A stretch of DNA of 64,000 bases from Chrysophaeum taylorii (lineage: Eukaryota > Sar > Pelagophyceae > Pelagomonadales > Pelagomonadaceae). Made by a program: the position numbers and the translations under genes. The notes below the pieces were generated by a model. That model was not told the origin of the DNA and searched no databases. It worked only from the letters and a program-made list of their open reading frames with translations. Every line of letters starts with the position of its first letter. Within the stretch, counting starts at the first letter, position 1. The stretch covers positions 32,007-96,006 of the forward strand of contig JAQMWT010000192.1 in assembly GCA_029834535.1 (NCBI GenBank). Reading direction: 5' to 3'. Positions 25,405-61,039 of the stretch are shown here, piece after piece.

Positions 25405-25956
25405 CCCAAACCCACCCCTGTCACCCCAACAAGGAACAAACATTCGAAAAACACCACGCCCGTGCTTCTCCTGTCCACCCCAGACAAGCGCGAGCACCCG
25501 CACCTCTGCAAGGTCACTTTTCCCACTCAAACGCACCCCCCAAAGCCGTCCACTCCTGATCAACGGGTCAAGGTCCCCCTCGGTGATGTTCGTCGCAAGC
25601 TCCAGACCATCCGGAACCTTAGTCAAGCCGGCCGCCAACACACCTCCAACTCGGAACGCATGACCAAGCTCATCAACCTCATTACCACTATCTCCGACGA
25701 GATACTCCTCTCCGAGGCTGATTCCGACGCCGCCGAGTTTCTTCAGGTGTTATCATCCGATCCCCTGGATGATCCACCCGATGAGGGCGCAGCCGACGCA
25801 TGACCAAGGCCACCTCAGTTTTTACGATGATCACGGACAGCTATGCCTTTACGACGATCAAATCCCCGAAATAGAAGATGAAGACGACTGCGCCGAAAAC
25901 TACGCACAACGTCACAGCGACTATATGCGTGCTCTACACAAGAGCCAGCTTTTTCG

Positions 25957-26430
25957 ATGACGGTTGACGACGACGCCTGTGCCGCCAACCAAACTTTACT
26001 AAATCAGGCACCAAGCCTCACGATGAAAAATTTCCCAACATCATCGACACTTTCCCCCAGAGTCGCAGAATTTCTTTGTGCCACTTACACTACAGGAAAG
26101 GCCCCCACAAAAACTAACTCTCTACTCGGATGCAATGGACCCGGCACAGAAGTTTCTTTAATTGACGGTGGCGCATCATTTTGCTTCGCTCGCACTATAC
26201 AACACTTTGTTCCCGAGTCCATACGCAGGATTCCCGAACATACCAGCCGCATGGGCAGAGGCACCTTAACCAGCCATTTCATCGGTGTCAAACCGCTGTA
26301 TTTGCAGGCTGCAGGTCTCTCCTAAAAGGATATCAAAGACTCCACGGGCTACGCATTATACTTAGTCTTTTTGGTCGTCCCGGGTTTACAGGTTATAGCG
26401 ACCTCTCAACTGAAAGCTCTGAACGTACAG
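25957..26430 (+). pseudogene. copia1 aspartic protease remnant
   Basis: VSLIDGGASFCFA carries the retropepsin active-site Asp (D-G-G-A-S against the usual D-S-G-A-S of copia). After an in-frame TAA at 26323-26325 the same frame continues DSTGYALYLVFLVVPGLQVIATSQL, which resembles the end of a copia protease. It then runs without a break into the methyltransferase region. The protease and methyltransferase therefore share one frame. Confidence 0.6.
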
Positions 26431-26931
26431 GCAACAGACCCACCGCTGCCGCACGAACCATACTTGTATGAACTTCTGAAAAATTCCACTTCAGATCCTC
26501 ACGATTACAAAAAGCTTCTAGGCACGACCGCAGTAGTTCTCGCCAATCGCCAAACCAATGGTCTCTTGTCACTGCTATCCCATCCAAAGCAAACATTCCG
26601 CGCTGTGATCAGTTTCCACACCGGAACGAAAATGTCCCTCAAGGATGAACTTGCAAACATAACTCAGAACGTCGCAAAGACGCGCTCACAATCTCACCTC
26701 CTCGATTTCGCCAAACTGCAGAACCATTCTGCATTCCTGACGGACTTAATAGGACTGCCGCGTACTGTCGTCCAATATGCATTCACTGGCACAGCGGACC
26801 TCTCTGTGCAAGCACAGCCCCCTCCGCAACACACATCCATTATGGCAGGTGGACTGCACCAAGAGGGTTTCGCCTCTTTTCGCACACGCTTCGACCAACG
26901 CATCATTGTCGTTGCCATCTGCGAAATAAAC

Positions 26932-29824: not shown

Positions 29825-31872
29825 AAATAAACCCCATTATGCGCGCCCGCGCGCAGCAACTTTTCCCGCGCGCTCTGCATTATAAGGATCTCAGAAAGCT
29901 CACCGACGCATTGCAAGCCGGCAAAATACGACAACCTAAACTTGACCTGGCTGTTTTTACTTTGCCTTGTCAACACCTGAGCGTAATGAAAGACTATGAC
30001 GGCTATGCCACTCCGGCAACCACCGACCTCTTCGTCAAAGAAATATTCGCTTTGTTCGTTGCACGCTCCCGACATACACCATTGTCGAGAATGTACCACC
30101 AAACCCGCAAACCCACCACGAGTACGCCCAGGTCGCCAAATGCTATCAAAGCATGGGTTACTTCAGACACTCCGGTGTATACAATGCCTCCGCCTTTGGC
30201 GACGTCATAAGCAAGAACCGCTACCTCGCTGTCTTCGCACGACACCCGCTAAACGGCTACAACCTCGAGAATACCGCTTCTCCCTGGTTAATATCTCCTC
30301 CGAGCATGGTTCCCCTCCTGGACCCAAGTCACACTATCCCCGACGATCTCAGGATAGCCAACCCCGCTCTTCGCGCCACAGTGACCCGCTCCACCTTGGA
30401 TTACTATCAGGACAACGCCACTTTCTCATATGCACCCGCCAATGCTGCTCAACTCTCGATTTCCGAGAATGCACGCATCTGCCAAATGCTTGCACGCTCG
30501 AAGAAGCCCTCCACGGATCTAGGACTGGACGCCGACGGCACCCCCTATGCATCGATGACCACCATCCCACATCTCTTGGTATTTATATTGCGCACAGTCA
30601 TTTGTCGCAACACCCTTCGCCGCCCGGAACACACTCCGCTGCTTTCACGCCTCAGAGTCTCAATGTGCTTACTACCTGGATGGAGCCATCTCCGGCACTG
30701 CCGCCACCGCCGTCGCATGTGGCTACTTCCCGCGCGCATCCCTCACCTGGCATTCACGCTCCCCTCGGATATTGGACTGCTCACACCAACCCGCAGTCTT
30801 CTCCCCAACGCACACATTCTCCCTGAATGTTCCCAAAGGCACCGCCTTTCTGGTCGTCGTCTACACCAACTCCTTGGCAGCCGCTCACAGCTGCTCGCGC
30901 CGCATTCACGTGGGTCCACTACATGAATCGCTCGCATCCCGGATGTGCTGCGATCAACTCACAAGGGCGGATAATCCTCGATGACCCTACGGGACTCATA
31001 ATGTCCGAAGCACGTCCCACCTACGCGGACTATGTTGGCCACATCGGCGACACACTCCAGAAAAGCACCAAGTGCTACTCGGTCACTGGCTCGTACCCAA
31101 CCAACACGAGCTACTCCAACGCACTACTGCTGATCTCTCCCGAACACATCCGATACGCGACTCTCAACGAAATCGCAAAGTTTGGACACCACTCGGACCC
31201 GGAACTGCTTCGCTTGTTCCAACAGCATCCGCCGTACTTCGCGTTTAAGACACTTGCCAACGCCGTCCCGCACAACATGTTGCAAGCTAGTAATGCGCTG
31301 TCCTCACACTCCAAGAATCGCATCACCACTTGAATCTTCACATCGAATGGGCAACCATACGCAACGGCATCCCCAGTCCCGGAGACATCGCTCAGGTTGC
31401 AGAATTCTTCTTGAACATCTCCAGCCGTCTCTTAGCAGTGGAGGACCTCCACCTCACCTCCCTCTTCAATGCTGTTGCAGATGCTCACCATGCTGCGATC
31501 CGTAAGCCACGCAAATCGAAAAACCTCGAGACGCTACTTGCCGAGGCCACAGTTGCTAAAGTCCGAGTGGACAAGCGACCCAGCCCCCCTAGCGCTTCGA
31601 CTGCCGCTCTACCCCCCTTGCACAAGCCCGGCACCACTCAGCACGCGAAAAGAGTGCTTTTTGTCACTCGCTGGCACCGCATACACCACCAACAACCCGA
31701 GATTCTTCGCCGCACGATTGCCGCCAACGTAACGAATCTCCGCCCAGGTGATGATTGATATCTGCAAGAGTGCAGCGAATGCAAGCGCTGTCAATCGCAT
31801 GACAGCTTCAGTCATAAGAACACTTCCTGGTGACAGGATGAACTGGCCTACACTCCTGGCCAACATCTCCAC

Positions 31873-32574
31873 ATGGATGTATCCTACCCGAGCATCAGTA
31901 AATGCTATGGTGGATTCCGCTACATAAAGCACTTCGCGTGTGTTATTTCGGCATACAAATGGGTATACTTCCTGAGGAAACTGGACGCGCAGGACGTTCT
32001 GGCTGGCATCCTCCGCGTGGACAACGGGATTAAGGTCGAATTCGATGTAAGTGTGAAAATCATCTCATCCGATGCTTTTTCCACATTCCGCTCCGAAGCT
32101 TTCCACCCGCTCAAGGTGCAACTCGGTATCCAGTTTCAAATCATTGGTCGCCATCTACACCAGCGGAACTTCGCGGAAAACAGCGTCAAAGAAAATACTC
32201 GAGGCAATGTCGTTCGCATCCTTAACCTGCGCAGCGTCCGCATCGAAGGAAAGCCTATTAGCGCCGAGTATTACCACCCGTTTGCTCTACTGCATAAGAT
32301 CCAAGCAGACAATCAGCGCTCTCATGGATTGCCCTCGCGCACTCACATGCCCTGCACCGTCCCCCGGCGCATTATGTCACCCACGGCACCACTCTTGAAG
32401 CTCCTCCCCTTTGGCGAACCTGTCACATTCGTCTACCCGCAAAGCCAAAAACTGGAACCCTCCAGCGTCTCCGCCTCTTATTTCCACAGCAACAACTATC
32501 TCCCGAATCTCCCTGGCACGGATCGATTTATCCGCGATGTTCACAGCTCTATCCTGCTTGTACATCAAGGGTGA
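31873..32574 (+). CDS. copia1 integrase core
   Basis: DDE integrase of the Ty1/copia type, which joins element cDNA to the target. HMDVSYPSISKCYGGFRYIKHFACVISAYKWVYFL is the first beta-sheet with catalytic Asp. ISSDAFSTF gives the second Asp, and RNFAENSVKENTR the Glu after ~45 residues. It is followed by PLLKLLPFGEPVTFVYPQ, as in copia integrases before the C-terminal region. It lies directly after the methyltransferase and ahead of the RT. The upstream linker (31330-31758) is Lys/Arg/Pro-rich. The frame differs from its neighbours, so the polyprotein is broken. Confidence 0.75.
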   Translation: MDVSYPSISKCYGGFRYIKHFACVISAYKWVYFLRKLDAQDVLAGILRVDNGIKVEFDVSVKIISSDAFSTFRSEAFHPLKVQLGIQFQIIGRHLHQRNFAENSVKENTRGNVVRILNLRSVRIEGKPISAEYYHPFALLHKIQADNQRSHGLPSRTHMPCTVPRRIMSPTAPLLKLLPFGEPVTFVYPQSQKLEPSSVSASYFHSNNYLPNLPGTDRFIRDVHSSILLVHQG

Positions 32575-32619
32575 TATGGAACAATCGTCACCTCGAACGA
32601 CTTCGACGTTGATGCGGAC

Positions 32620-33249
32620 ATGGTAGTCTATCGCAACAAGGAAATTGAGCGGAGTAAAGCACAGGCGCAGATCCCAGCAGAGGCACGGCAAGAGGACCCG
32701 CTCCCAGCTATAAGCGATCAGTCAATGCCGGAACTTAGACAGGAGTCGCAAAATGAGGGCGAGACTCATGATAACAACCATGATGACGAACCCGATGACG
32801 AAGACAAGAATAAGGAACCAGATCAAACCTCTGCTACTGGTCCAAGTCCCGTCAGCGACGAGACACCTGAACAGGACTTTTCGTTCCTCAACAGGCCACC
32901 TCCGCCGGATGGTAGCATTCCGATGCCCAAGCGAAAAGATCGCCTAGAGGTTGTTCTCGACGATTCAGGTTTTACTCCAGTCTTCGTGCATCGCAACCAG
33001 AGTGACAAACTCAAGGCAGATCTCAAGGACGAGCGCGGATTCCGCATTCCCAAAGATCAACTCTATATCGTGAAACGCGTCGACGATGGACAACTATTCA
33101 CCAGACGCATTATCGCACCAGAGTATAGTCGCAACTGGAAATACGGCTCGCGCCACAGCCAACATGTCCAGCACGTTGATGTTTCTTATCAGTGTCAGCG
33201 CTCTGCACCAAGGCCACGCCGCCAGCATCGCATCTCATCTCAACATTAG
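32620..33249 (+). CDS. copia1 linker / integrase C-terminal region
   Basis: Acidic, low-complexity stretch (HDNNHDDEPDDEDKNKEPDQ) then RLEVVLDDSGFTPVFVHRNQSDKL..YIVKRVDDGQLFTRR. The position between integrase core and RT fits the variable C-terminal part of copia integrase. No independent domain recognised. The following block (33170-33724) continues in another frame (CLLAITTQDYGIMGG...). Confidence 0.5.
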   Translation: MVVYRNKEIERSKAQAQIPAEARQEDPLPAISDQSMPELRQESQNEGETHDNNHDDEPDDEDKNKEPDQTSATGPSPVSDETPEQDFSFLNRPPPPDGSIPMPKRKDRLEVVLDDSGFTPVFVHRNQSDKLKADLKDERGFRIPKDQLYIVKRVDDGQLFTRRIIAPEYSRNWKYGSRHSQHVQHVDVSYQCQRSAPRPRRQHRISSQH

Positions 33250-33680
33250 AAGGGACGCTAAGCCGCCAGACGATGTCCCGATAGGATGCCTCCTCGCAAT
33301 TACCACCCAAGACTATGGTATCATGGGCGGCACTGCACTGGATCTGCAGAGAGAAACCGACGCAGAACCCTTGTACGTTAACTTCCCAAGGAAGCCGCAC
33401 CATTCGTCTGTTCTGGTCGATCACCTGGACAACGACAATTCTGTTCTCGAGAACTATGTATGCCATGACGAATTGTCACCGGCAGAGTACTATGCGCGTC
33501 AATGGAACCAAGAATTCTGTTGTATGAGTTCCTCTCTCTTATGGGACATCTCAGCGCATCAGCACTACCACCTAGCTTCTCGTCACAGACGCGCCTTCAT
33601 GCATGATTCTGCCGAACTCGGACACCTTTTTCTAAGTCAAAGTGATCCGAATCAAGACATCCTCCAAGAAATTATGAGCT

Positions 33681-34826
33681 ATGACATACAGCACATCGAC
33701 CTTGTTACAACTCGTGACTGCTGATGACATTGTCTATGAGCCGGAGAAGATCGTCGAACTCAAAGGACTCAGCGAAGAAGATAAGCTTAAGCATGTTGCT
33801 TCGATTCGCAAGGAAATTGAAGGATTGTGCTCCAACGGCGTCTTTCGGCTAGAACCTTTACCGCCAGACCGTTCGTCTATCTCGACGAAACTCGTGCTGA
33901 AGATCAAGTATTTTGCCGACTGCATCCCAGACCGCTACAAGGCTCGTCAAGTTGCCCGAGGTTTCTTGGCACGCGTCGGCATCGACTTTTATGCCACATC
34001 TTCACCAACTGCAATGCTCGCCACTAATCGGTTATTGCTCGCCATCGCTGTGAAACACAAGCTCCCCGTTGCGCACGCGGACATTCCCCAGGCCTTCATC
34101 CAATCGGCACTTGATCGCCCGGTATGGATCGACTTACCTCGTGGGATTCGTGTCTCACAGAACCTTGTCCAGCAGATGCAGGAGAACCACCCAGAGTCCA
34201 AGTTAGCTCTCCGACTCGTCAAGGCTCTCTATGGTCTCGAACAGTCAGCTTTGTTATGGAACATTGAGCTTGGCTCGTTACTTCGACAACATGAGTTTGG
34301 ACGCTCACAAGTCGACACTTGCCTATATATCAGCCGGGATCGATCTATTAACAGACGGGTTCTCATATCCGTCTCTGTCGATGATCTCTTGATCACTGGT
34401 ACCAACACCGCCAAAATCACATCTCTTCGCACCGCTTTGGAGAAGGAATATGGCAAAGGTACTTGGCACGACAATATTCGATCTTTTCTTGGTATCGACG
34501 TCCATTACAATGTCTCCGCTGGTCACCTCACTATGAATGTTGCGGCGAAGATAAACAAAATGCTCGCCGAGCATAAACTTAACCTCCGTAGTTCTGACGT
34601 CCCTTACTCTGACATCCTCACTCAGAAACCTTCTGCTAAGTTTCTTTCCGACTTGGCTCCTACTTTGGAACTATTACGCAAGCATTTTCCCCATTACTGT
34701 GGCACCAGTATCTACTTATCTGTCACATGTTGTCCAGATATTACAACTCTGTCCAACAAATGCTGCAAAGGTATGCACAACCCTGAGCAAACGCATCTTC
34801 TACATTTATTATACTTCGCTACTTGA
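33681..34826 (+). CDS. copia1 reverse transcriptase
   Basis: RVT_2-type reverse transcriptase. KHVASIRKEIEGLCSNGVFRLE is the usual N-terminal copia signature. Next come YKARQVARGF, the HADIPQAFIQSALDRPVWIDLPRG palm segment with the first Asp, LVKALYGLEQSALLWNIEL, and SVSVDDLLITG, the catalytic DD pair (x-V-D-D). FLGIDVHY and the thumb follow. The overlap with the RNase H frame (34823) shows a frame change. Confidence 0.9.
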   Translation: MTYSTSTLLQLVTADDIVYEPEKIVELKGLSEEDKLKHVASIRKEIEGLCSNGVFRLEPLPPDRSSISTKLVLKIKYFADCIPDRYKARQVARGFLARVGIDFYATSSPTAMLATNRLLLAIAVKHKLPVAHADIPQAFIQSALDRPVWIDLPRGIRVSQNLVQQMQENHPESKLALRLVKALYGLEQSALLWNIELGSLLRQHEFGRSQVDTCLYISRDRSINRRVLISVSVDDLLITGTNTAKITSLRTALEKEYGKGTWHDNIRSFLGIDVHYNVSAGHLTMNVAAKINKMLAEHKLNLRSSDVPYSDILTQKPSAKFLSDLAPTLELLRKHFPHYCGTSIYLSVTCCPDITTLSNKCCKGMHNPEQTHLLHLLYFAT

Positions 34827-35533
34827 AGGGTAATCCGAATGATTCTCTCGACTATTCATCCGACAGCCCCTCTATCACGCCCTTTATTCAACATCTTATC
34901 AGCAACTACCCCGAATTGCATCATCTTCGTTCGCCTATTATTTGTTTCAATGATGCCAGTTTCGCTGACCGTTCTGACCCTCGCTTAAGATCTCATTCTG
35001 GTGCATGTATTTTCGTATTTGGCAGCGTCGTATTCTGGTCTACCAAGCGCCAAACTCTTACTGCTAAAAGCTCCATGGAAGCCGAACTCATCGCCGCTAG
35101 CGCAGCCGCTGATGAATGCCAATGGTTTCATAAGATATTCTCCTCTCATCCTTATCTGTTTTCACGTGATCAAGCTCACGCTATCCCCCTGCTTATTGAC
35201 AACGCTAGCGCATTGCATGTCGCTAATCACCCCAAAGTCAGTGCTCCCTCTCGTCATATCAATTTACGAGAATTACGCATTCCTGACTACCAGGCCAACT
35301 CGGTCATTCGTCCCCTCTGGTGTCCTACTCACTACCAGATCGCTGATCATTTTCCAAAACTTCTTTCCCGCAACTTGTTCCACAAGTTCAAGAACGGTTA
35401 CGGTGTTCATTGCACCTCTTCTTCACCACCATCTCATCAAGTTTCTCTTTCCGCTACTCTTCCACCGTACAATTCCGCCCAGAACACTCTTCACATCCTT
35501 GTCGATGGAAACTCGCTAACTCTTCTATTCTAG
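34823..35533 (+). CDS. copia1 RNase H
   Basis: Ty1/copia RNase H: ICFNDASFADRSDPR (first Asp), VVFWSTKRQTLTAKSSMEAELIAAS (Glu in the second motif), LIDNASALHVANHP (third Asp) and HINLRELRIPDYQ (usual H.R.H..R motif altered). It ends shortly before the right LTR. Confidence 0.9.
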   Translation: MKGNPNDSLDYSSDSPSITPFIQHLISNYPELHHLRSPIICFNDASFADRSDPRLRSHSGACIFVFGSVVFWSTKRQTLTAKSSMEAELIAASAAADECQWFHKIFSSHPYLFSRDQAHAIPLLIDNASALHVANHPKVSAPSRHINLRELRIPDYQANSVIRPLWCPTHYQIADHFPKLLSRNLFHKFKNGYGVHCTSSSPPSHQVSLSATLPPYNSAQNTLHILVDGNSLTLLF

Positions 35534-42681: not shown

Positions 42682-42703
42682 TGTGTCGAACACCTTGGCG
42701 CTC
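42682..42703 (+). repeat. First part of the 3' LTR of element A, split by gypsy1
   Basis: TGTGTCGAACACC..GGCGCTC matches the start of 16353-16463. The rest resumes at 53150 after gypsy1 and its GCTC duplication. Confidence 0.75.
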
Positions 42704-43035
42704 TGAGGTGATTTTTCTCAGACACCCGCCCCTCTTGGCCAGGCCAGAGGCCTCAACAACCCTTTCTCCCAACCCGAACCGCGGGTGAAACCACCACACG
42801 CCCGATCTCAGCGAAAACACTCACGCCATCTTGAAATCGGACAATCAAAAGAGGGTAATAGCAAGAAGACAGCAAGAAAGCAATACAAATGCCTGGTACA
42901 TTGGGTTCAGTGGAAGCGCAGGTGAGGATGCCAAGATGACACCCCCCCCATAATTGTAAGGTCAGTACCAGGGCAACAATCAGGGTAAGTCAGGTGGCAG
43001 GCAGGCAAGCGGGGGGAATGGGCGTTGCTGCCACA
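42704..43035 (-). repeat. 3' LTR of gypsy1 (332 bp)
   Basis: On the minus strand begins TGTGGCAGCAACGCCC, preceded by the purine-rich GGGGGCTCC (43036-43044), a likely polypurine tract. Nearly identical to 52815-53145. Confidence 0.9.
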
Positions 43036-43461: not shown

Positions 43462-44026
43462 TTACCATGTTTGAAACGGTCGCGGTCTGAAGGTAAATGC
43501 AGAGGGGCAAGAAGTGTCGATGGTTGGCACTTTCAAAGGCACAATCTGTTGTACAGATACTACAACCGACTCACCATCATCGTCGTTGACGTCTTGAATT
43601 TCGTAAACGACGGGAGAAATCTTTCTGGTAACTATGTACGGCCCGCGCCAAATGGGCCGTAGCTTGTGGCGCGTCTTAGGCACGAAACGCAGAACATAAT
43701 CACCTGGGGAAAACTGGATGTCAATATGGTGGGCATCATAGTTGAGTTTTTGGCTCCTGTGCTCTGCGGTGAGCTCGTGTACCGAGTCGACTATAAAATT
43801 CAAACTTGTTCTCAAAGTCCGTCAAAATTTGTTGACGTGATTGCGGTAGATCACGCTGTTCACTCGAAAGATTGTAATCGGGTGGTAACAGGGGTTGCTT
43901 GCCAGTGCGCATCATGAAAGGTGAAATCTTAGTTCCCGGAATGTACATCCTATTGTACATGAATGCCTCATATGGGAGGAAATTCGACCAATCTGGCTGA
44001 CGCTGTTCATCGATCGCAGCTCTCAA
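43462..44026 (-). pseudogene. gypsy1 integrase C-terminal part with GPY/F module
   Basis: Two overlapping minus frames: FLPYEAFMYNRMYIPGTKISPFMMRTGKQPLLPPD (43736-44026), then LRFVPKTRHKLRPIWRGPYIVTRKISPVVYEIQD (43462-43815). WRGPY is the GPY/F motif of Ty3/gypsy integrases. Both are separated from the main Pol frame by frameshifts near 44025 and 43800. Confidence 0.85.
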
Positions 44027-47000
44027 GAAGGCTTGATAAATCGGTTGACACGTTCAGTGTGGTTACTCTGAGGGTGATACGGAAGGGTAGTACGATAACG
44101 TACGTTGAATTGACGAACAAAGGTGCGAAATAACCTGTTCGCGAACTCATTTCCATTATCCGTGACTATGCACCGTGGGAGACATCCCTCAAGTAAAATC
44201 TTGTCCATAAACGCGTTCAAAATTGAATAATCATGTTTGGTGTTGATCAGAGCCAATTTCAAGAAATGCGACGCTGCATCGTACATCGCGAGTATGTACG
44301 TGTACAGGTCAGCGCCTCGCAGAGGTCCAATCAGATCCATACCTAGGACATAGCAATCTCCGACGCGATTCGGTTGACAGAGCAAGCCATGACGCTTAGG
44401 CATGGTGGATCGAATCTTCTGGCAAATAATCCAGGCATTGACGAACTCGTTAACTGATGATGAGACGTTTGGCCACCAATACCGTTCTAAGATTTGATTC
44501 GCTGTGGAGTCTCGTCCTACATGGCCTCCGAACAATCCTCGGTGATGCATGGTGATTACACGCTTTCGCATCGACTGAGGGACCACAATAAGACGCTGAG
44601 AATCCGAATCATCGACCTTATACAATACGTTGTTATCAACTTCATACAGTACAGATGACTGCTCGTCTTGATCTTTCTGTTCAGAATCGAAATTTCGTCT
44701 GATGCGCTTGCATGTGTCATCTTCAGCTTGTTCGTTCGCTATCTCATCAAGAGTGATCTCATCCTCCGCTAGATCCGCAAAAGGGAGACGTTCGACGGAG
44801 TCAACTGGCTCAGACTCGTACGAGAATTGAGGCGGTTGTACGTTCTGTCGCGTACTAACTGCTGCCATAGCTGCGGTGGGTCCGCTGTCCGTCGGTATAG
44901 GCATCGTCACCGAAGAGGAGGTGAAACGAGCTGTGCCGGGTACATCGATGGGGATTTCTTGGAAGATCAAATAAGCTTCATTGATCGGTTCCTCGTCTTC
45001 GTCTTTCTCGATCAACTTGTCGATAGGGTTGCGCGACAGACAATCCGGGATGCGCATGCCAGGGGAATTTCCAGGCTTGTATCCGAGCTCCCGGTCGAAC
45101 GCAGCAAGCCACATAGCCCATCGTGCTAACTGTCCAGACGTATGCTTCGAATCCCGAAGAAACGTTAAATTACGATGATCCGTTTCTAATTTCGTCTGAT
45201 GACCTTCGATATAAAATCGGAAATTTTCAAGAGCGGAGAGTACTGCGAGGAGTTCCAAGCGCCGAGGATCATACTTCCTAATCGACTTAGGCACGGTTCG
45301 ACTCCAGTACTCAATAACTCTCTCTTCTATTCTTTCTCTTCCATCGTCGTCGACGACTGGCACCTTTTGAAATAGGTAAGCACCCAACCCATGCGCGGAA
45401 GCATCAGTTCGAATGTAGAAAGGCAGCGAGTAATCAGGATGGTAGACACCCTTCGAAGTGACAATAGCCTCGATGATGGCATCCCAAGCTTCCTGACACT
45501 CTTTCGTCCACTTGAATTTCACGTCCGGCAACGTCAGTTGTCTTAATGGCTGCAGAGCAACTTTCGCAAAATTCCTTACATAACGCCGGCAAAAACTCCC
45601 CATTCCAAGGAAAGACCGCACTTGCTTCTTAGAATCAGCATCCGACAAAGTGCCAGGGACTGGCGTGTGTCTAATGGCTTCTAAAGACCTCGGTGATGGA
45701 AGAAGTCCGTTAGGGGTAGATAAATGACCCAAAAACTCAATGACTTCTTGCATGAAGTGGATCTTCTTGATCTTGGGGCTGTACCCTTTCAAGGCGAGAT
45801 GGGGAATAACTTGCACAAGGCACTGCAAATGATTCTTTGTATCCGCGTGACCGGCGAGAATATCGTCGATATATGCCACGAGATCACGATGTAGCCATTT
45901 CGACAAGTCAGTGTTTAGCTGCTTACAAAATAAACTTCCGGTTGGTTTGACTCCCAAAGGTAGACGCATGTAGCTGTACGCTCCCAGAGGACTAGTGAAG
46001 GTTACCACATCTTGTGCATCTAGCGACAATCGTAAATTGTGATAGCCCCAACGAAGATCCAAACTAGAACGACAGAACTTGCCGATGAGAAACATCAACG
46101 CGTCAGCCATGCTCACACTCGACCAGCTATCATCCTTGGGCAATGCATTGAGGCGCCGTAGGTCGACAGCTGCCCTGTAAGCATTGGAAGTGCCAGGCTC
46201 AGCACCTTTCTTAGGCAACATCAAAATAGGGAAACCCCATGGAGAATTCGCGGGACAAATAACTCCGTCTCGGGTCCATTCTTCAATCTGCACCCGCAAG
46301 CATTCAATCCTTTCTTTCGACAACCGATATGGCGAGAGTTTGACGGGAGTCGGGTTCTCTTCTTTGAACCGGAGCGTCACTTCAGGTGAATCAACAGGTC
46401 TCATCACATCATCGAAAAATGCCCACGAATACGAGATTAGATGCTTCATCATCAACTTCTCGTCATCATCTAAAGCAGGATGCTCTGTAATACCCAATTC
46501 AGTCATCACCTCTTCGACCTGCGCGACGGTCGGAGGGATGACCTGCATGCTCTCCTGATCCGCCAAATGAGGAGGCATCACCGGTAAAGGTTGACCATGT
46601 TCGTCGTGAGGCGCGTCCGCCCACGGAACGTCGTACTTATTAAAATACGCAGGTCGCTCCTTCGCGGTGTCTTCTTCTTCAGCAGTTGTGGAAGGCTGGT
46701 TGTTGGCTTGGTTGCTCTGCACAACAGCAGTGGCAACGATGCCCCCTGCAAAAGATTGAGCCGTCCCAGGCGATGTATCCGAAGGTGTTTGTGGGGTGGT
46801 GGTGGCAGCTGATGGTGCAGGACTCGCAGAAGAGTAGAAGTCATCGGGCGAGATCCATGACACACTTCGAGTGGCAGGGTCGAGCGTTGGAATGCGCGCC
46901 TCGACAGCAAAAGGTGAAAACCGTCGAATATGGTGATCGGGTTGGGCTATCGTAGTCGTCGCAATATTCCGCGACTTACCCAAATTTAGAAGTGAAGGGT

Positions 47001-47148
47001 CAAACGAATTGTGCACTGCTAGCGCGATCCGCGTCATAGTCGCGGGTGGCACCATACTGCCAAGCATCTTCATAGCTGCTGTCTCCGAAACTTTCTCACC
47101 CCATTGCCACGTAGCAGGAAGGGTCACAATTTCCTGGTGCATTGGCAA
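44023..47148 (-). CDS. gypsy1 Pol: methyltransferase motif X, RT, RNase H, integrase
   Basis: 1041 codons. Residues ~10-48 (LPATWQWGEKVSETAAMKML, then GSMVPPATMTRIALAV) are motif X of a C5 methyltransferase. A Pro/Ser/Thr linker leads to the conserved YDVPWADAPHDEHGQPLP. RT follows: SPWGFPILMLPKKG, SSLDLRWGYHNLRL and LVAYIDDILAGH (catalytic YIDD). RNase H: FYIRTDASAHGLGAYLFQ, YDPRRLELLAVLSALENF and ETDHRNLTFL. Integrase HHCC finger: MHHRGLFGGHVGRDS..CQKIRS. The DDE core follows (GMDLIGPL, CIVTDNGNEFAN, YHPQSNHTERVNRF). It is one long open frame apart from the frameshifts at both ends. Confidence 0.93.
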   Translation of the reverse strand: MPMHQEIVTLPATWQWGEKVSETAAMKMLGSMVPPATMTRIALAVHNSFDPSLLNLGKSRNIATTTIAQPDHHIRRFSPFAVEARIPTLDPATRSVSWISPDDFYSSASPAPSAATTTPQTPSDTSPGTAQSFAGGIVATAVVQSNQANNQPSTTAEEEDTAKERPAYFNKYDVPWADAPHDEHGQPLPVMPPHLADQESMQVIPPTVAQVEEVMTELGITEHPALDDDEKLMMKHLISYSWAFFDDVMRPVDSPEVTLRFKEENPTPVKLSPYRLSKERIECLRVQIEEWTRDGVICPANSPWGFPILMLPKKGAEPGTSNAYRAAVDLRRLNALPKDDSWSSVSMADALMFLIGKFCRSSLDLRWGYHNLRLSLDAQDVVTFTSPLGAYSYMRLPLGVKPTGSLFCKQLNTDLSKWLHRDLVAYIDDILAGHADTKNHLQCLVQVIPHLALKGYSPKIKKIHFMQEVIEFLGHLSTPNGLLPSPRSLEAIRHTPVPGTLSDADSKKQVRSFLGMGSFCRRYVRNFAKVALQPLRQLTLPDVKFKWTKECQEAWDAIIEAIVTSKGVYHPDYSLPFYIRTDASAHGLGAYLFQKVPVVDDDGRERIEERVIEYWSRTVPKSIRKYDPRRLELLAVLSALENFRFYIEGHQTKLETDHRNLTFLRDSKHTSGQLARWAMWLAAFDRELGYKPGNSPGMRIPDCLSRNPIDKLIEKDEDEEPINEAYLIFQEIPIDVPGTARFTSSSVTMPIPTDSGPTAAMAAVSTRQNVQPPQFSYESEPVDSVERLPFADLAEDEITLDEIANEQAEDDTCKRIRRNFDSEQKDQDEQSSVLYEVDNNVLYKVDDSDSQRLIVVPQSMRKRVITMHHRGLFGGHVGRDSTANQILERYWWPNVSSSVNEFVNAWIICQKIRSTMPKRHGLLCQPNRVGDCYVLGMDLIGPLRGADLYTYILAMYDAASHFLKLALINTKHDYSILNAFMDKILLEGCLPRCIVTDNGNEFANRLFRTFVRQFNVRYRTTLPYHPQSNHTERVNRFIKPS

Positions 47149-47966
47149 CGTGAGTGGTGCATTGGCAACGTGAGTGGACGGGTGTTCGAGAAACGAGGTC
47201 CCATTTGCAATTTGTTGCGCGTCACAGTGAAGGCGGGGCCGGTAGCCGGGCGCGTAGATGAGAAACTATTCACTACAATGGGCGGGTGACCACCTGTAAA
47301 TCTTAACGCTGGCCCAAGACCGTCCCGTAAATTCGGTGGTACACGCGATAATAACGGCAGTTCCAAGCAAACATTGCAAGCAAGTAGGCGCTTGCGCGAG
47401 CACAGCAATTCTGGTGTGATATTATAAAAATCGACAATGCGCGGCACATAAAATTGGTGATGCACGAAAGGGATCACTGATGGTTCCTGCTCGAGCGTCC
47501 ATCGTCCAATTACATAAGGTGCGTTGCGGCAATGACGCAGGACTCAAGAAGTAAAAGTAGCTCCCTTGCGTGCGTCCCTGTAGTGCAAATTGGCAGTCGA
47601 CCCATAGATACGCGGTGGACTTGCGTGAAAATAAGAGTGCTTCCAAAAATCTGAATGTAAATACGACAACACCAAGTCGTATGTACGACGATGAGATTCC
47701 CCCAACTCGTGCAAAACATAGGGAATCTTCGGAAAATTGAGCTCAAAGGTGGCTCGGGCTTGAGGACAAGCATCCAAAGCCAAGACAATGCGAAATGAAC
47801 TGCCATATAGCTCATTGCATCGCCGGATACCCAACGTTGATCCTCCAGCGCCAGCAAAGTAGACGACGACAAAGGTGTAGGTGATGGGTATCCAAACCAA
47901 GGAGGCGTGCTTAGATAGCAGCTCCTTAGCGGTCGCTTCCATCTCCATTTCTGGTGTTTTTTTCAC
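47040..47966 (-). pseudogene. gypsy1 C5 DNA methyltransferase-like domain
   Basis: Minus-strand: VVVYFAGAGGSTLGI is motif I, the S-adenosylmethionine loop (FAGAGG at 47841-47858). IVLALDACPQARATFELNFP is motif II. YFHASPPRIYGSTAN stands where SPPCQ..S is expected, so the catalytic Cys is replaced by Arg (47610-47618). After an in-frame TGA (47544-47546) the frame continues with WTLEQEPS in place of ENV, LLCSRKRLLACN (motif VIII) and STRPATGPAFTVTRNK (the RP..T motif of the target-recognition end). Motif X is at the start of the Pol frame, displaced by a 20-bp tandem duplication. Upstream, only a TAG at 48015-48017 separates it from the preceding frame. The domain sits between protease and RT and is now inactive. 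Confidence 0.82.
47136..47175. repeat. 20-bp tandem duplication causing a frameshift in the methyltransferase
   Basis: GGTGCATTGGCAACGTGAGT occurs twice in a row (47136-47155 and 47156-47175). Twenty is not a multiple of three. Treating one copy as extra puts motif X in the frame of the upstream methyltransferase motifs. Confidence 0.9.
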
Positions 47967-48014
47967 TTCTTCATCTGGAGGTGGCCCAGTAGGGGGTCTG
48001 TCACTTAAGACATC

Positions 48015-48506: not shown

Positions 48507-48904
48507 TACCTCACTCCTGCGATCGCTAACCGTTGGTTGCGATGGAGGACGGCGCCTAACACGCTTGCTCACTGCGGCGGCCCCGGCCGTCCCGGAGTGA
48601 GACGGTGCCTGCTCGCCTCCCGGGCTGGCCGGTTAGCACCCGGAAAGTCCGCGCTGGGATGGGGTTCGCTCGGTTGGGCAGAACGCGACGGACAGGTCGA
48701 TTGTTCGTGGACCAACACGTCCGCGGCCTGCGACGCTTTTGCACGACCTCGCACAAGACCGCGCGCAGTGGCGGTACACCATCAACAAGTCCGTCCTCGT
48801 CCCTCGTCTCTGCCCCAACTGCGTGATTTTCCTCTGTGATTCCGCACCGGCTCCTGCCGGTCCGGCCTGGCTCCCATGCTCGGGAGAGGTCTGAAGTTAG
48901 TTAC
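48507..48904 (+). mobile_element. SINE-like retroposon copy in gypsy1
   Basis: Shares its start (TACC..TGCGATCGC..GGTTGCGATGGAGGACGG), CTCCCGGGC.GGCCGGTTAGCA and the end GAGAGGTCTGAAGTTAGTTA with the copies at 9433-9717 and 49643-50021. The middle is divergent. It interrupts the end of the protease. No clear target duplication was found. Confidence 0.6.
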
Positions 48905-49442
48905 CAACTGGCGTCCAAGTTTGGATATTCCCATCTTGTATAGCGAGCTTAGCTGTCGGGAACATCTGCACTACCTGCGGAGTCGCATCGAATGCATCAT
49001 TGTAAAGGACAACTCCATGCTGGTCTTGTGGCGAGGCGGAAGTCCGATTCTTGAGAACTCCGATGGTCACTGCAGAACGCCGGAAAATAGCTCTCTCTGT
49101 TGCATGATCAAAAATCTTACCCAAGAGTCGTAATTCTCGTGCTCCCAATAGTAACTGCCCATTAGTTTGACCAACAAAGAACATGAGCAGTATGGATGTC
49201 GTTGGCACTAAGGAGATCAGGAGAATGACCCTTTCTCGAATAGCAGCTCCCGAACCTCCTGACCCATTCAGAGTACGAATCGTAGGGAGTGGCCGACGAT
49301 AGATGATTTTGCCGTCACGATCAAGTTTGCGATACAAGCGGTGATCGATGTAGGGGGAATCAGCCATGCCATCCAAACCGGCAGCGATGATGGAATATTT
49401 TGAACCATCTAGCGAAGAGACAGCCACAGGCACATACGTCAA
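48897..49442 (-). CDS. gypsy1 retropepsin
   Basis: IIAAGLDGMADSPYIDHRLYRKL holds the presumed active-site Asp (D-G-M-A-D against D-T-G-A-D). IRTLNGSGGSGAA.. and FFVGQTNGQLLLGARELRLLGKI resemble the flap and the (I/L)LG..(L/F) segment. The C-terminal part runs into the SINE-like copy. The active-site Thr/Gly change leaves activity doubtful. Confidence 0.6.
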   Translation of the reverse strand: MTYVPVAVSSLDGSKYSIIAAGLDGMADSPYIDHRLYRKLDRDGKIIYRRPLPTIRTLNGSGGSGAAIRERVILLISLVPTTSILLMFFVGQTNGQLLLGARELRLLGKIFDHATERAIFRRSAVTIGVLKNRTSASPQDQHGVVLYNDAFDATPQVVQMFPTAKLAIQDGNIQTWTPVGN

Positions 49443-49642
49443 CGAGGCGAATCTCGTGCCATCTTACCTTACGGCTTTATTTTCACGATGGTCGGGATCC
49501 TGAGTGGTATTCAACGCAGTATGAGGGCAGAAACTCTCGAAATCCGAAGAGATGGAAGGGTGAGCGGCGTAACGCTCGGCGCAGTCGTCCCTCGGTGGCA
49601 CTATATCCGTAGCAACCAAGGTATCTTGTCCCACACGAACGA

Positions 49643-50021
49643 ACTAACTAACTAACTTCAGACCTCTCCCGAGCATGGGAGCCAGGCCGGACCGACAGGA
49701 GCCAGTCCGGAATCACGGGCCTGTAGACGAGGAGCGCCGAAAGGTGGGTCGGCGGAGAGTGATCATCAAGCTTGTCGCCATGCGACGAGGAGACCGCGAT
49801 GTGACTGACAATCAACTCGTCGATAACCTTCCGTCTGCGCCCCCCGGCCATACCCCGTCCCACTGCGAACGTTCCGGCTGCCAACCGGCCCGCCCGAGAG
49901 GCGAATAGGTGCCAACCTACGCCGGGAGGGCGGATGCCCTCGCAAGGCTCAGGATTCATGAGGCACCGTCCTCCATCGCAACCATGCGGTCGGCGATCAG
50001 GGTAAGGGGTATTGTCCCACA
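49643..50021 (-). mobile_element. SINE-like retroposon with 17-bp target duplication
   Basis: TTGTCCCACACGAACGA flanks it at 49626-49642 and 50022-50038. On the minus strand it starts TACCCCTTACCCTGATCGCC and ends in a TTAGTTAGTTAGTTAGT tail. Long target duplication plus simple-repeat tail identify a LINE-mobilised retroposon. It appears to be the most complete of the three copies (379 bp). It separates gag from protease. Confidence 0.88.
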
Positions 50022-50129: not shown

Positions 50130-52369
50130 TCAGTGACGACCAAGAAGGAAGGAGGTTCCATGGGCACCAGGGGAATAGCCTTCTGCAGAGAAGCTATCGT
50201 CATCGCCTCCAACATCGTAATCGTCACCGTCATACACGTTGCTCTCCATGAGCTCAGAATACTGCACAGTGCAGTAGCCCGCTCGCTTAGCGTCACCCTG
50301 GTCTTCGCCAAGCACTTCAAGCCACTGAGCGGCGACACCATCATTGCGCTGGCTAGGGTTTGCTCTCTGCGGCTGTTGCCCTCTAACCGTTGGAGCCGCC
50401 TGCTGTGCTTGACGAAGCAAGCACATCGTGTTGAGAGCCGTAGTCAGATCCTCCAGGCGCACCGAGGTCTGAGCGGTCCGCTGCACTGCGGGCTGCCTTC
50501 GGACCACCTGCTGTTGAGTGCCTGCAACCAAACGCTGTTGAGTGCCTGCAACCAGCTGCTGTTGACCTGCATCCGGAACCTGTGCTGCTGTGTAGACCAC
50601 CTGCGGCTGTTGCACAACGCGCGGCGCTAGCTGAGTCACTGAAGCGTGTCCTGCTGCAGCTAAAAGCGCCCGTCGGTATTGCTCCTGTCCCTCTGGCGTC
50701 GCTGGAAAACCCGCATTCGTCAACGTCTGAGCAGCACGTCTCTTCCTCGAGGGATTGTCCGGCACAGGACACACACCGTTGTCGTGGTAAAAACTACCAT
50801 GCCGGCCGCAACTAAGGCACGTCGTAATTGCTTGACGCGTATTGGTATCTATCCCTTGTGGTAGCCAGATTCCAAATCCCGAGTCAGTAACATAACCAAC
50901 CCGCTGTACTGGCTGCAACTGCTGCATCTGCTGCTCTCTCCTCATCCGTGGTGCGCGCTCCTTTTCCTTCTCCTTCTTAATCGCCTCTTCGATGTTGGCA
51001 GTAGGGTTGGCTTCCAAAATCTTGGAGATCTGGATGGTCAATTGAATGACATCATTGAGCGTTAGAGTAGATGCTTTCATATGAGGTGAGGTCTGAGCAA
51101 GTTCGACACTCTTCCGCAAGCGCTCAGAATTGAGCCCAGCAATGAAGTGCGACAGGAACGCGGCAGGATCAGTATCGCGACCTGACATCGCTCGCCACTG
51201 GCCGAATTTCTGCACCCACCGCGCAATATACTCGTTCAAGCTCCTCAACTGTAGCCCGAGGTGGGCAAGGAAGCTTCGTCGCCTCTTGCATAGCATCCAC
51301 ACAGTCCTCATCATGCTGGCGGCAACTCTTTTAATTTGATGGTCCCTTCCTTGTATTTTTTCCACATCTGCGGCCGTTCGGCTTCCCATTTGCGATAAGC
51401 TTCCATAGGGGCAAGTTAATACTCGCCTCCGATCACGTTCATCGCTATCGAAGGCTTGTCAATTCTGCCTTCCATCATACGCCGCAATTGCATCCACCAC
51501 GCGTCCACCTCCTCCCGGTCCTTAGTAATTTGCCCACTGAGATTCGAAAACGTGATACGAGTCATACCAGCAGCTCCCTTCTTGATCTGAAGTATCTCTT
51601 CTTCGTTACGAGGACGTGCGGAACCGGGGTCAGTATGATGCTGCGGGATAGGCTCCGGTTGACTTCGCGGTGGCTGATCGTCGGTCAGTGCCGATACAGC
51701 GTCATCATCTTCGGGCGTAACGCGCGTGGCATCCGGAGAGGCTGGCCGTGCCTCTCGAGCATGCGCCCGCGTGGATTCCTCCACCATTCGTCGAAGTCGA
51801 TCGTTGTCGATCCGCTGCCGCTCCACTTCTGAGCGTTGTTGTTGCGCGTCGCGGCGGGTGCGCTCAATTTCAAGTAGGACTTCCTCGATCTGCGACTGGC
51901 ACATCTCGAATCGCTCGTTGATGGCCTGCAGAATCTCGGGGTCGGTATCCACTCGAAAATCTGCCGCAGCTCTCGTGTTCGCGGATGGTGGCCTAGGAGG
52001 TGCACTCTCCTCTGGTCCACGCATCGCCGTAGGAACTTCGGGGTCCGCTCGAGATGACTCCGTAGCATTCATCGCACGTTCGTAGGGTCGTGCGTACGGG
52101 AACGTCGGCTCACCCGGTCTTGAGGTTGCGTCTGGCGCAACCGTAGCTCCCCCTTCGCCAGCGCGTGGATCCGGAAGGATGACCACGCTTGGGGGCTTGT
52201 CGAGGCTATCCGATGATCTTGCCTCTCTTCTGATGTCGCTTTCCTCGGCTTCCGGCCGTTGAAAGGGGGTACTGAACGGTATTCTTCCAATAGACGCAAA
52301 TGGAGTCCCTGCACTGAATCGTTGCAGACGCCCCTGTGCGTCCCGAAACCACTGCGGTCGTTCTGTCAT
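50130..52369 (-). pseudogene. gypsy1 Gag, two frames
   Basis: 52369-51416 starts at an ATG (MTERPQWFRDAQGRLQRF) and has a long coiled coil (EILQAINERFEMCQSQIEEVLLEIERTRRDAQQQRSEVERQR). It ends at a TAA, after which the same frame still reads like protein (EAYRKWEAERPQMWKKY). 51389-50130 contains the capsid-like LNEYIARWVQKFGQW..DPAAFLSHFIAGLNSERLRKSV. It also has a CCHC-like CLSCGRHGSFYHDNGVC and a Gln-rich tail with AGTQQ repeats. Together they make one Gag, broken at ~51400. Confidence 0.8.
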
Positions 52370-52767
52370 TGGCCTTTCTGCTCACAACTCACTTGTTGTA
52401 TTCCTTTTCGTCAGACGACACTTGCCGGCAGCCGTCTGACTGCGCGCTGGTACCGGTGCGCTGGACTTACGGAAGTATTTGCCTTGCGCGTGAAGACTAT
52501 AGACGGCCTTCCCGGTGCTGTCGCTCGCCGTCAGGGAGGTGGTCTGCCCCGCGCGAGCTAGGTTAGGGCTTACTTGCTTTTTTGCCTAGGTAGGTCTTAC
52601 AATGCTTTGCCTCGTGGAGTCGTAGTGACTCCGCTCCCCGTTCGATCCGAATCACGTAAAATGAACCCCGCGGCGGTACCCGTGATCCCCTGGATCTTCA
52701 CCCACAAATGCGTCGGCTTCGCACTCACTCGACCGTTACGAACCGACTCGCCGCCGAAAAACAGGAG

Positions 52768-52814: not shown

Positions 52815-53145
52815 TGTAGTGGTTTTACTCAGACACCCGCCCCTTATGGCCAGGCCAGAGGCCTCAACAACCCTTTCTCCCAACCCGAACCGCGGGTGAA
52901 ACCACCACACGCCCGATCTCAGCGAAAACACTCACGCCATCTCGAAATCGGACAATCAAAAGAGGGTAATAGCAAGAAGACAGCAAGAAAGCAATACAAA
53001 TGCCTGGTACATTGGGTTCAGTGGAAGCGCAGGTGAGGATGTCAAGATGACACCCCCCAATAATTGCAAGGTCAGTACCAGGGCAACAATCAGGGTAAGT
53101 CAGGTGGCAGGCAGGCAAGTGGGGGGAATGGGCGTTACTGCCACA
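52815..53145 (-). repeat. 5' LTR of gypsy1 (331 bp)
   Basis: Pairs with 42704-43035; outer flank GCTC at 53146-53149. Confidence 0.9.
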
Positions 53146-53149
53146 GCTC

Positions 53150-54680: not shown

Positions 54681-54726
54681 CATGCACCACACACACACCC
54701 CCCTCTTAGCAGTCGACCTTTAAAGA
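54681..54726 (-). repeat. Inverted copy of the module end, upstream of tyrosinase
   Basis: Read on the minus strand: TAAAGGTCGACTGCTAAGAG then a GTGTGTG tract and TGCATGAA, like the modules at 56.1-58.05 kb. It points away from the tyrosinase gene, as does the first module on the other side (56132 on). Confidence 0.75.
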
Positions 54727-54823
54727 CCAGCGAGAAGATTGCAATGCAACGAGAAGAAGAGGGCGGCGTGAACACCAAGGACCTCGTCTGAAAATACCGA
54801 GATCAGAAGATCTACAAGCCAAG

Positions 54824-55897
54824 ATGATCCTGCTGCTGGTTCCTGCCCTCGTTCAGCCCACCATCGCAATTGTTCTACGCAAGGAGATACGATCGCTGTC
54901 AACCGATGAGTTTTACGAGTGGAGCACAGCGCTTCACAAATTTCGTGACAACAAGATTCCTGATTTTACGTTCCCGAATCTCCAGACGATCACGGCCTTT
55001 CACGCGGCTTTGACTTTGAACGAGACCTACGATCAGGCGCACAAGGGCGCAAATTTTATTCCGCTGCACGCGTTATTGATACGAGCGTTCGAGATGGGGC
55101 TGCAGTACTGGTATCCAAACGCGAGCAGCATTTACTGGGACTGGTCCGACGATCCGAGCGCTATCTTCACGCCCGAGTTGATGGGCGAGTACAACGAGTC
55201 GACGGGAGTGATTCTCAATGGCGCCTTCGCGAACTTTCCGGTGGGATACGTCGCGGAAGTGGCAAACGAAGACTTCCTCGAGTGGGTGCCCGAGAGCCAG
55301 ACTGTGCTTCGCTACGAGTCGCTCCCGCTGAACACGGAGATCGTGGGCCGCATCGCGAATCAGGCTATGTATTACGATCCACCGGCGACAACCGAGATGG
55401 TCGAAGCGTGCGGAAACATGACTTCGTTCCGCGATTTTTGGTGCTGCGTCTATTATGATGAAGATTCGCGGGATTCCTGCGGCTCTACCAGCGGCGCTAG
55501 CGAAAGCCGCCTTCACGGTCAAGTGCACGGGTGGTTTGCTGGCTACGCGACCGTCGGAGATTCGTTAGTGAGATTCGACGGCGCCGACCTCGCCACTTCC
55601 CCAAATGACCCTGTCTTTTACCTTCACCACTCCAACGTCGAACGCTTCTGGCAGGCCTGGGCCTTTAAAACGGGCCGGTTTATGGCGACCATCGCCGATC
55701 CTTGCGGCGGATATGATGAGGAAACACCCGAAGGCCATGGTATCCGCGAGCCATTCTACCCCAAAATTGACATGGTTGACGCCGTGACCGACGAAATTCT
55801 TCCCGACGGGGCCGACGGTGTACCCGACACGCCATATGCCATCTGCAAAGCCATCTACGCCAACCCACCCTATGTGTACGACACCTACCCCTACTAG
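54824..55897 (+). CDS. Tyrosinase / polyphenol oxidase
   Basis: Type-3 copper oxidase that hydroxylates phenols and oxidises o-diphenols to quinones. The ATG at 54824 opens MILLLVPALVQPTIAIV, a likely signal peptide, so the enzyme is probably secreted or vacuolar. CuA site: H60 (FHAAL), H73 (AHKG) and H82 (IPLHALLIRAFE). CuB site: H231 and H235 (HGQVHGW), then LHHSNVERFWQAW with H268/H269. DPVFYLHH is the family signature. Cys pairs at ~195-222 could form disulphides. Length (357 residues) is that of a core domain without a C-terminal shielding lid, which such enzymes often carry as a propeptide. Single exon. It is bracketed by outward-pointing copies of the GTCGACTGCTAAG module. Confidence 0.9.
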   Translation: MILLLVPALVQPTIAIVLRKEIRSLSTDEFYEWSTALHKFRDNKIPDFTFPNLQTITAFHAALTLNETYDQAHKGANFIPLHALLIRAFEMGLQYWYPNASSIYWDWSDDPSAIFTPELMGEYNESTGVILNGAFANFPVGYVAEVANEDFLEWVPESQTVLRYESLPLNTEIVGRIANQAMYYDPPATTEMVEACGNMTSFRDFWCCVYYDEDSRDSCGSTSGASESRLHGQVHGWFAGYATVGDSLVRFDGADLATSPNDPVFYLHHSNVERFWQAWAFKTGRFMATIADPCGGYDEETPEGHGIREPFYPKIDMVDAVTDEILPDGADGVPDTPYAICKAIYANPPYVYDTYPY

Positions 55898-60356: not shown

Positions 60357-61039
60357 CGGCGTGATCTGGTGATCTGACTTACATGAACACGTCGTTCTTC
60401 GGGCGGAGAGTCGAGAGACTCTATCCTATAGGTGACCGGGGAGAGGCGTTCCTTGATAATAAACGGCCCTCGCCATTCCGGTCGAAGTTTGTTCTGAAGG
60501 AAAGGGATGTAGAGCAAAACGTGCGATCCTTCCTTGTATTCAACATCAACATGATCAGCATTATAAGCCAATCGCTGTTTCTTCAAAGCTTTATCACGAG
60601 CCTCGCGGACGAGCTTTGTATAATATTTCAATCGTTCGCGAGTCTCGGCGACTGCATCAGAGCGAGTCTTCGGCAACAATCGTGTATCAAAATCCATGAG
60701 CGTGTAGTCAGTCGGCAGCATCGGCTGACGGTTCAGGCGCAGCATAAAGGGAGAAATCTGCGTGCCTGGAATAAACTTGCGGTTGTAGCAAAACGCAATA
60801 TAATGGGCAAAGTCAGGCCAATCCGTGATGTTCCGGCCTTGAAGGCAAGCACGGAGGAAGGCCTTGATAAATCGGTTGACGCGCTCAGCCGGGTTCGACT
60901 GGGCATGATAAGGAATCGTAGTTTGGTATCGTGTGTTAAAGAGATGGCAAAACTCGCGCATCAACTTGTTCACGAACTCTTTACCGTTGTCGGTACGAAT
61001 CATCTGGGGCAAGTAGCCCTTGAGAAATGTTAATGACAA
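60353..61039 (-). CDS. gypsy2 integrase core and GPY/F module
   Basis: MIRTDNGKEFVNKLMREF (second Asp), YHAQSNPAERVNRFIKAFLRA (Glu), then FIPGTQISPFMLRLNRQP and LRPEWRGPFIIKERLSPVTYRIE (GPY/F motif). The first Asp is in the preceding frame (VLCMDLFGPLPSAG). One frameshift lies near 61040-61117. Confidence 0.9.
   Translation of the reverse strand: MSLTFLKGYLPQMIRTDNGKEFVNKLMREFCHLFNTRYQTTIPYHAQSNPAERVNRFIKAFLRACLQGRNITDWPDFAHYIAFCYNRKFIPGTQISPFMLRLNRQPMLPTDYTLMDFDTRLLPKTRSDAVAETRERLKYYTKLVREARDKALKKQRLAYNADHVDVEYKEGSHVLLYIPFLQNKLRPEWRGPFIIKERLSPVTYRIESLDSPPEERRVHVSQITRSRR

Follow-up and report, generated by a model that had tools for sequence, protein, structure and literature searches.

A decayed Ty3/gypsy element in Chrysophaeum taylorii and its lineage with a predicted C5-cytosine methyltransferase domain in the Pol polyprotein

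The window analysed here is a stretch of 64,000 nucleotides (C192:32007-96006) from Chrysophaeum taylorii, and the genome searched for related sequences comprises 70.8 Mb; all positions given below are those of the window. Its minus strand carries a Ty3/gypsy retrotransposon of 10.4 kb, bounded by LTRs that are about 97% alike (10 mismatches and one gap over 329 columns) and arranged as direct repeats. The 5' LTR is located at 52815..53145 and the 3' LTR, which reads TG..CA on the plus strand, at 42704..43035, with the exact ends of both placed by eye, and the GCTC repeat at the two outer ends of the element (42700-42703 and 53146-53149) is a putative 4-bp target-site duplication. Two gag-like open reading frames (51416-52381 and 50130-51458, together 50130..52381) were assigned by position; they contain a zinc-knuckle-like stretch, CLSCGRHGSFYHDNGVC, that was seen by eye, and yielded no Pfam family over the cut-off. 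Next on the minus strand come a protease-like frame at 48897..49463 (AAGLDGMADSPYI ... LLGARELRLLG), named from position and motif only and with no Pfam match, and the methyltransferase domain with a charged N-terminal linker (46995..48014), which is broken by a stop codon and a frameshift. The pol frame of 1080 amino acids (44023..47265) contains motif X of the methyltransferase, a linker, the RT (46212-45724; RVT_1, 2.9e-11), the RNase H (45510-45097; RT_RNaseH, 4.7e-26), the integrase zinc domain (44583-44410; Integrase_H2C2, 3.6e-15) and the integrase core (44340-44071; rve, 4.8e-7, at 30.4 bits slightly below the cut-off of 32.6). A minus-strand frame at 43736..44053, with no Pfam family over the cut-off, is by its position an apparent continuation of the integrase in another reading frame. 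Both the direct LTRs and the order of RT, RNase H and integrase are those of Ty3/gypsy elements.

Two insertions, of 390 bp (48511..48900) and 363 bp (49641..50003), are also found within the element. The longer one is absent from the copies L010 and L013, with collinear matches breaking at this place, and contains an arm of the inverted repeat I1. A 68-nt inverted repeat is common to the two insertions, and stretches of similar appearance were seen by eye in other loci, L005 and L034 among them. Outside the element, an open reading frame with a tyrosinase domain (PF00264, 8.5e-22) adjoins it on the plus strand at 54710-55897, and a minus-strand segment at 60738-60995 shares 67% identity with pol sequence of the gypsy copy L040 and probably represents part of another gypsy element. 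A copia element (RVT_2, E 9.5e-40) occupies positions 24217-35533 on the plus strand.

The original prediction described a gypsy-type retrotransposon with methyltransferase motifs fused to the N-terminus of its RT polyprotein. The motifs that it named are indeed present on the minus strand, spread over more than one open frame, and could be read in the sequence as FAGAGG (motif I, 47858-47841), ASPPR (motif IV, 47624-47610), CSRKR (motif VIII, 47402-47388), RPATGPAFTVT (motif IX, ending at about 47220) and LGSMVPP (motif X, 47064-47044). Together with motif II and motif VI (LEQE) they occur in the correct order, where the names of motifs I to X are our own assignment and not the output of a tool. 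The catalytic codon of motif IV (47610..47612) is CGT, for arginine, where 43 other copies have a cysteine. Further downstream in the domain, a premature TGA stop is located at 47544-47546, and, in comparison with copy L010, 20 bp that look like a tandem duplication are inserted near 47177. The stop and the insertion break the frame, so that motif X falls in the frame of the RT and the motifs are spread across two frames. The gypsy copy in the window is thus dead, one of the two options originally considered, by a replaced catalytic residue, a premature stop and a frameshifting insertion. Its own N-terminal piece matches the DNA methylase family PF00145 with an E-value of 0.0045 and 16.9 bits, which is below the cut-off of 22.

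A domain piece of 156 amino acids from the window gave at least 152 matches in the genome, with 150 of 692 candidates scored, and the best 30 of these are 94-100% identical. Many of the matches are free of stops, with open frames of up to 2129 amino acids. The domain is located between the protease-like stretch and the RT in a single long frame in the intact copies, rather than N-terminally in the polyprotein as originally proposed; matches to the domain and to the RT share open frames of equal length on the contigs C311 (2115 amino acids), C225 (2129) and C345 (1812). The order in the lineage is thus Gag-like, protease-like, methyltransferase, RT, RNase H and integrase. By identity to L010 the copies form at least four subfamilies: A, which includes the window copy, B with 81-85%, C with 40-42%, and D, represented by L056 with 38% and assigned by this alignment and by shared motifs. 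Subfamily C was found with the domain piece and through RT relatives of about 60% identity, and D through RT relatives. Reading upstream of the RT in eight related loci, we found the domain in the RT frame of five. In the other three (L057, L058 and L061) the open frame 5' of the RT contains just the C-terminal end of the domain, and in L058 and L061 a PPC motif occurs at another place of the locus. Since it is present across subfamilies and RT-related loci, these sequence comparisons identify the domain as an ancient component of this gypsy lineage.

Whether other copies keep the catalytic cysteine was a question raised along with the original prediction, and the answer is clear. Motif IV was first read in 44 copies, of which 30 are the best matches and 14 are more divergent; the cysteine is present in 43, and the window copy alone has arginine. 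A recount with a looser pattern gave 43 of the 44 loci L009-L052, with L035 dropped for a different residue after IY and with L053, which is the same site as L023, left out. All seven further RT-related loci that have a motif IV also carry the cysteine. Genome-wide, the exact flanking pattern with a cysteine codon occurs at 103 sites, and the pattern with the first two codon bases free at 106 sites, two counts that are not nested because the third base is T or C in the former and T only in the latter; both patterns overlook subfamilies C and D and sites whose flanks differ in further ways. Four of the 100 sites listed from the 106 are non-cysteine, namely those in the window (CGT) and on the contigs C639 (CGT), C334 (AGT) and C95 (TAT), so that replacement by arginine is seen in the window and C639 only among these 100.

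The remaining catalytic positions follow the same pattern. The glutamate of motif VI and the RxR of motif VIII are invariant in the nine domains of alignment A1 and the eight domains of alignment A4, all of which were picked for their open frames. In every aligned copy the glutamate is part of LEQE or IEQE, 38-40 residues past the cysteine, and the PC of motif IV is followed by isoleucine or valine and never by glutamine. Motif I (FxGxG) is conserved in both alignments, and motif X is variable apart from its proline. All four subfamilies, down to 38-42% identity, have kept motif I, PPC, the motif VI glutamate and RxR. The observation that ENV is degenerate was thus correct in that the motif is not ENV; the comparison of copies indicates that EQE is a family trait that retains the glutamate, whereas SPPR reflects the decay of the window copy. 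Activity or target could nevertheless differ from those of classical enzymes, because PC[IV] replaces PCQ and EQE replaces ENV.

The original prediction also considered that the domain may have become a catalytically dead module for binding of SAM or DNA. The arginine in the window copy is compatible with such a loss of catalysis, as is the lack of ENV and of the glutamine of PCQ in every aligned copy. However, binding needs no nucleophile, and the conservation of the cysteine, with 103 sites against four non-cysteine sites among the 100 listed of 106, therefore counts against a binding module, as does the invariance of cysteine, glutamate and RxR over aligned subfamilies that are only 38-42% identical. 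We consider a dead binding module to be improbable for the family.

Profile comparisons indicate that the gypsy domain is homologous to the C5 methyltransferases. PF00145 matches all nine domains of alignment A1 (E <= 1, best 7.1e-10) and seven of the eight in A4, with scores above the cut-off of 22 bits in L010 (38.3), L054 (26.3) and L059 (27.3), whereas subfamily D (L056) gave no match to it even at an E-value of 10. A search of a protein database with a piece of L010, using the domain as the region, had 1134 candidates, and none of them reached E <= 0.001. The A1 profile matched three of 6756 candidate proteins (E 0.09, 1.7 and 7.9), all of which contain PF00145, and two of which, P0121 and P0123, are prokaryotic by name. 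With hhalign over the domain, the probability was 96.4% for A1 against P0121 and 96.9% for A4 against P0123. These bacterial and archaeal enzymes are the best profile matches and have the same order of motifs, but identity to P0121-P0123 is only 24-31% (BLASTP), the gypsy domain has EQE in place of ENV, and a count by eye gives fewer residues from motif VI to motif VIII than in P0121. Sequence matches in the PDB were weak (best E 0.033 and 0.12), and two of two and five of six were to C5 methyltransferases.

The RT has many more relatives, 859 among 7992 scored candidates, and the eight closest are 38-61% identical, with those that are labelled coming from bacterial MAGs. PF00145 is absent from the 120 listed of these 859, and hhalign of A1 against four of the RT-relative proteins revealed no methyltransferase, where several of the proteins begin at or inside the RT on short contigs. 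In IMG/VR, 22 stretches matched the motif pattern and none was confirmed. In a low-confidence structure model of the 156-amino-acid window piece (mean pLDDT 59.8), strands and helices alternate in the expected order as far as motif IV, and the Foldseek matches of the model at E <= 0.001 are two DNMT2 structures and one DNMT1 (TM 0.31-0.39), followed further down by other SAM methyltransferases. The model is not independent evidence, because three DNMTs were included in its alignment and may have steered the fold.

The ratios of dN to dS also point to constraint on the domain. Between subfamilies A and B, dN/dS for the domain is 0.055-0.080 (dN about 0.10-0.12, dS 1.5-1.9), and between two lines of C it is 0.055-0.066, where values of dS above 1 are rough estimates only; the A-C and B-C pairs are saturated and no ratios are given for them. 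For RT and RNase H, the ratio is 0.054-0.088 when A (the window) is compared with B and 0.024-0.028 between the two lines of C, and the lower ratio in the latter means that the domain is less constrained than the RT in C. The stretch of protease and linker upstream is less constrained than the domain, with 61.9% identity between A and B (dN 0.30, dS 1.76). Among recent copies, which show few differences, the ratios are higher (0.14-0.63), as expected for changes that arose after insertion. A dS of 0.40 for the linker between the domain and the RT was dropped as an odd value, probably caused by poor alignment at the linker ends. Overall, the ratios indicate purifying selection on the domain, of a strength similar to that on the RT. 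The idea that the motifs are a chance reading in an unrelated polyprotein, for which the sub-threshold score of the window piece could be cited, is refuted by the profile matches, the conserved residues and these ratios, and we give it practically no weight; the domain is also present in related copies, contrary to what a chance frame would predict.

The original prediction called the domain second and independent, with reference to that of the copia element. The latter lies ahead of the integrase and RVT_2 and has the classical LPCQ and IVENV motifs, seen in the window as LPCQHLS near 29962 and IVENVPP near 30084, in a copy that is broken, occupies two frames and scores below the cut-off with PF00145 (0.0068). 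The copia family (L003-L008) accounts for six of the eight best-scoring PF00145 matches in the genome, and two copies that were scanned scored 39-41 bits. We observed no profile similarity between the gypsy and copia domains with hhalign (probability 0.06 and 0.04), a comparison of low power since the copia domain gives just 3.8% against P0121. In a tree of 12 domains, with no Dnmt3 sequence included, the gypsy domains form one clade (100/99) and the deep branches are not resolved. AU tests rejected none of three groupings: gypsy with copia (0.098), with DNMT5 (0.165) and with P0121 (0.056). The independence of the two domains is thus weakly supported, by their dissimilar profiles and not by the tree, in which a joint clade is not rejected. 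Taken together, separate acquisitions are likely.

The other two of the eight best PF00145 matches are genes of the host. At least 57 matches were obtained in total (123 of 474 candidates scored), in a six-frame search that can overlook host enzymes split by introns. One is a DNMT5-like protein, encoded by a frame of 2086 amino acids (L062, 168-6425) with DNA_methylase (9.1e-17) and SNF2 (3.3e-13) domains, and the other a 326-amino-acid piece that we named Dnmt2-like by eye. DNMT5 is described as a maintenance enzyme, and Cryptococcus neoformans, which uses it, as being without de novo activity (PMC10538959).

No mutational footprint of CpG methylation was seen in the gypsy copies. The ratio of observed to expected CpG is 1.05 in the element and 1.11 in the window, which means no depletion, even though the genome has at least 152 matches to the gypsy domain and at least 57 to PF00145, two sets that may overlap. 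In 30 copies, compared over their first 468 bases, there were five private transitions over 39 CpG sites versus 29 over 167 other C/G sites, and six versus nine private transversions; no CpG hypermutability was seen. Pairwise differences of the C-to-T type in the same bases and copies were most frequent before T (0.0743), followed by G (0.0581), C (0.0454) and A (0.0195). A count over all columns (transitions per site 0.0743 for CpG versus 0.069, transversions 0.0651 versus 0.0366) was dropped because of stretches shifted by indels. The missing footprint fits with no lasting CpG methylation, with methylation in another context, or with efficient repair.

Our preferred interpretation, to which we assign a probability of roughly 0.6, is that the window contains a decayed copy of a gypsy lineage that long ago gained a C5-methyltransferase domain in Pol, predicted to be active on cytosines of the element. 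The lineage keeps this domain under strong selection, and the element may therefore methylate nucleic acid itself. Live copies, in which the PPC cysteine, the motif VI glutamate and RxR are all present, would make an active enzyme, either freed from the polyprotein or working within it, that methylates cytosines in nucleic acid of the element itself. By analogy, its substrate would most likely be fresh cDNA before or at integration, in or near the integration complex. Methylated cDNA might thereby pass as host-like DNA or be protected, and after integration the marks could be copied by the host's maintenance enzyme of the DNMT5 type.

The enzyme might instead methylate RNA, such as the genomic RNA of the element or the tRNA primer. 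The absence of a CpG footprint would agree with this, as would the hhalign match to the Dnmt2-like protein of the host (71%), which is however weaker than those to the prokaryotic enzymes, and an RNA role has been discussed for a LINE-borne enzyme by de Mendoza et al. (PMC5890265). In the tree, the gypsy domain is apart from the Dnmt2-like protein, although at a depth where branches are not resolved, and its place beside the RT equally suits a DNA substrate. We view an RNA target as rather unlikely. We judge similarly, as a minor possibility, that the enzyme serves to limit or shape the element's own expression after integration, by self-silencing or choice of chromatin, and not to protect its cDNA. 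Marks placed by the element could be maintained by the DNMT5-like and SRA proteins of the host, but such lasting methylation of CpG would have to have occurred without a mutational sign. Modification of the cDNA remains the interpretation that we favor.

Retrotransposons with cytosine methyltransferases are known from gypsy, DIRS and LINE elements, as published in 2018 (PMC5890265, cited in PMC6338049). DNMT3 in "LTR Copia and DIRS" elements is also referred to in a paper of 2025, which cites the 2018 work (PMC12344493). The element described here shares with these systems a domain in the same frame as the RT, many copies and purifying selection. Most similar is KnitGypsy-Dnmt3 of Klebsormidium nitens, in which the Pol frame of a gypsy element likewise contains a C5 methyltransferase with the key residues kept and with Ka/Ks below 0.2 (PMC5890265). 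In yeast, no methylation was reported for this enzyme, in a test that the authors considered inconclusive. It is a relative of Dnmt3 in an element with repeats arranged as in DIRS (PMC5890265), whereas the element here has plain direct LTRs and a domain with EQE for ENV and PC[IV] for PCQ, for which a close relative was not found. SymbioDIRS-Dnmt3 and SymbioLINE-Dnmt of Symbiodinium are also many-copy, retrotransposon-borne C5 methyltransferases, and SymbioDIRS-Dnmt3 likewise has methyltransferase and RT in one frame; in yeast, the DIRS enzymes of Symbiodinium act as de novo methyltransferases on CG (PMC5890265). These belong to the DIRS and LINE classes and not to LTR gypsy elements. Furthermore, the abundant Copia elements of Symbiodinium are described as being without a DNMT (PMC5890265), in contrast to the DNMT-bearing copia family in the genome studied here. 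Within the window, the gypsy and copia domains are alike in being PF00145-type domains of many-copy LTR retrotransposons and differ in the motifs and position described above.

A literature search that covered few subscription papers retrieved no report that we recognised as this gypsy lineage. We regard it as a further example of the known phenomenon, distinguished by a divergent enzyme, classical LTRs, a DNMT5-bearing host and the presence of methyltransferase domains in two LTR superfamilies of the same genome. Provided that live copies are active, these two superfamilies would carry different cytosine methyltransferases in a host of the DNMT5 type. The reasons why retrotransposons keep such enzymes, be it protection of cDNA, self-marking or methylation of RNA, would then become testable, and the divergent motif VI would widen the range of working C5 methyltransferases. 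A more speculative idea, which we consider doubtful, is that the host has DNMT5-type maintenance and lacks a de novo enzyme of its own, such that new methylation arises only through the gypsy and copia enzymes. The transposons would in that case represent the de novo arm of the host methylation system. Another host locus, L063 (1148-3874), encodes a 2OG-Fe(II) oxygenase domain, AlkB-like by eye, together with an SRA domain, the only one found, and a PHD-like zinc domain slightly under the cut-off. The combination of a methyl-reading domain with one of possible function in oxidation or repair is unusual for a single protein.
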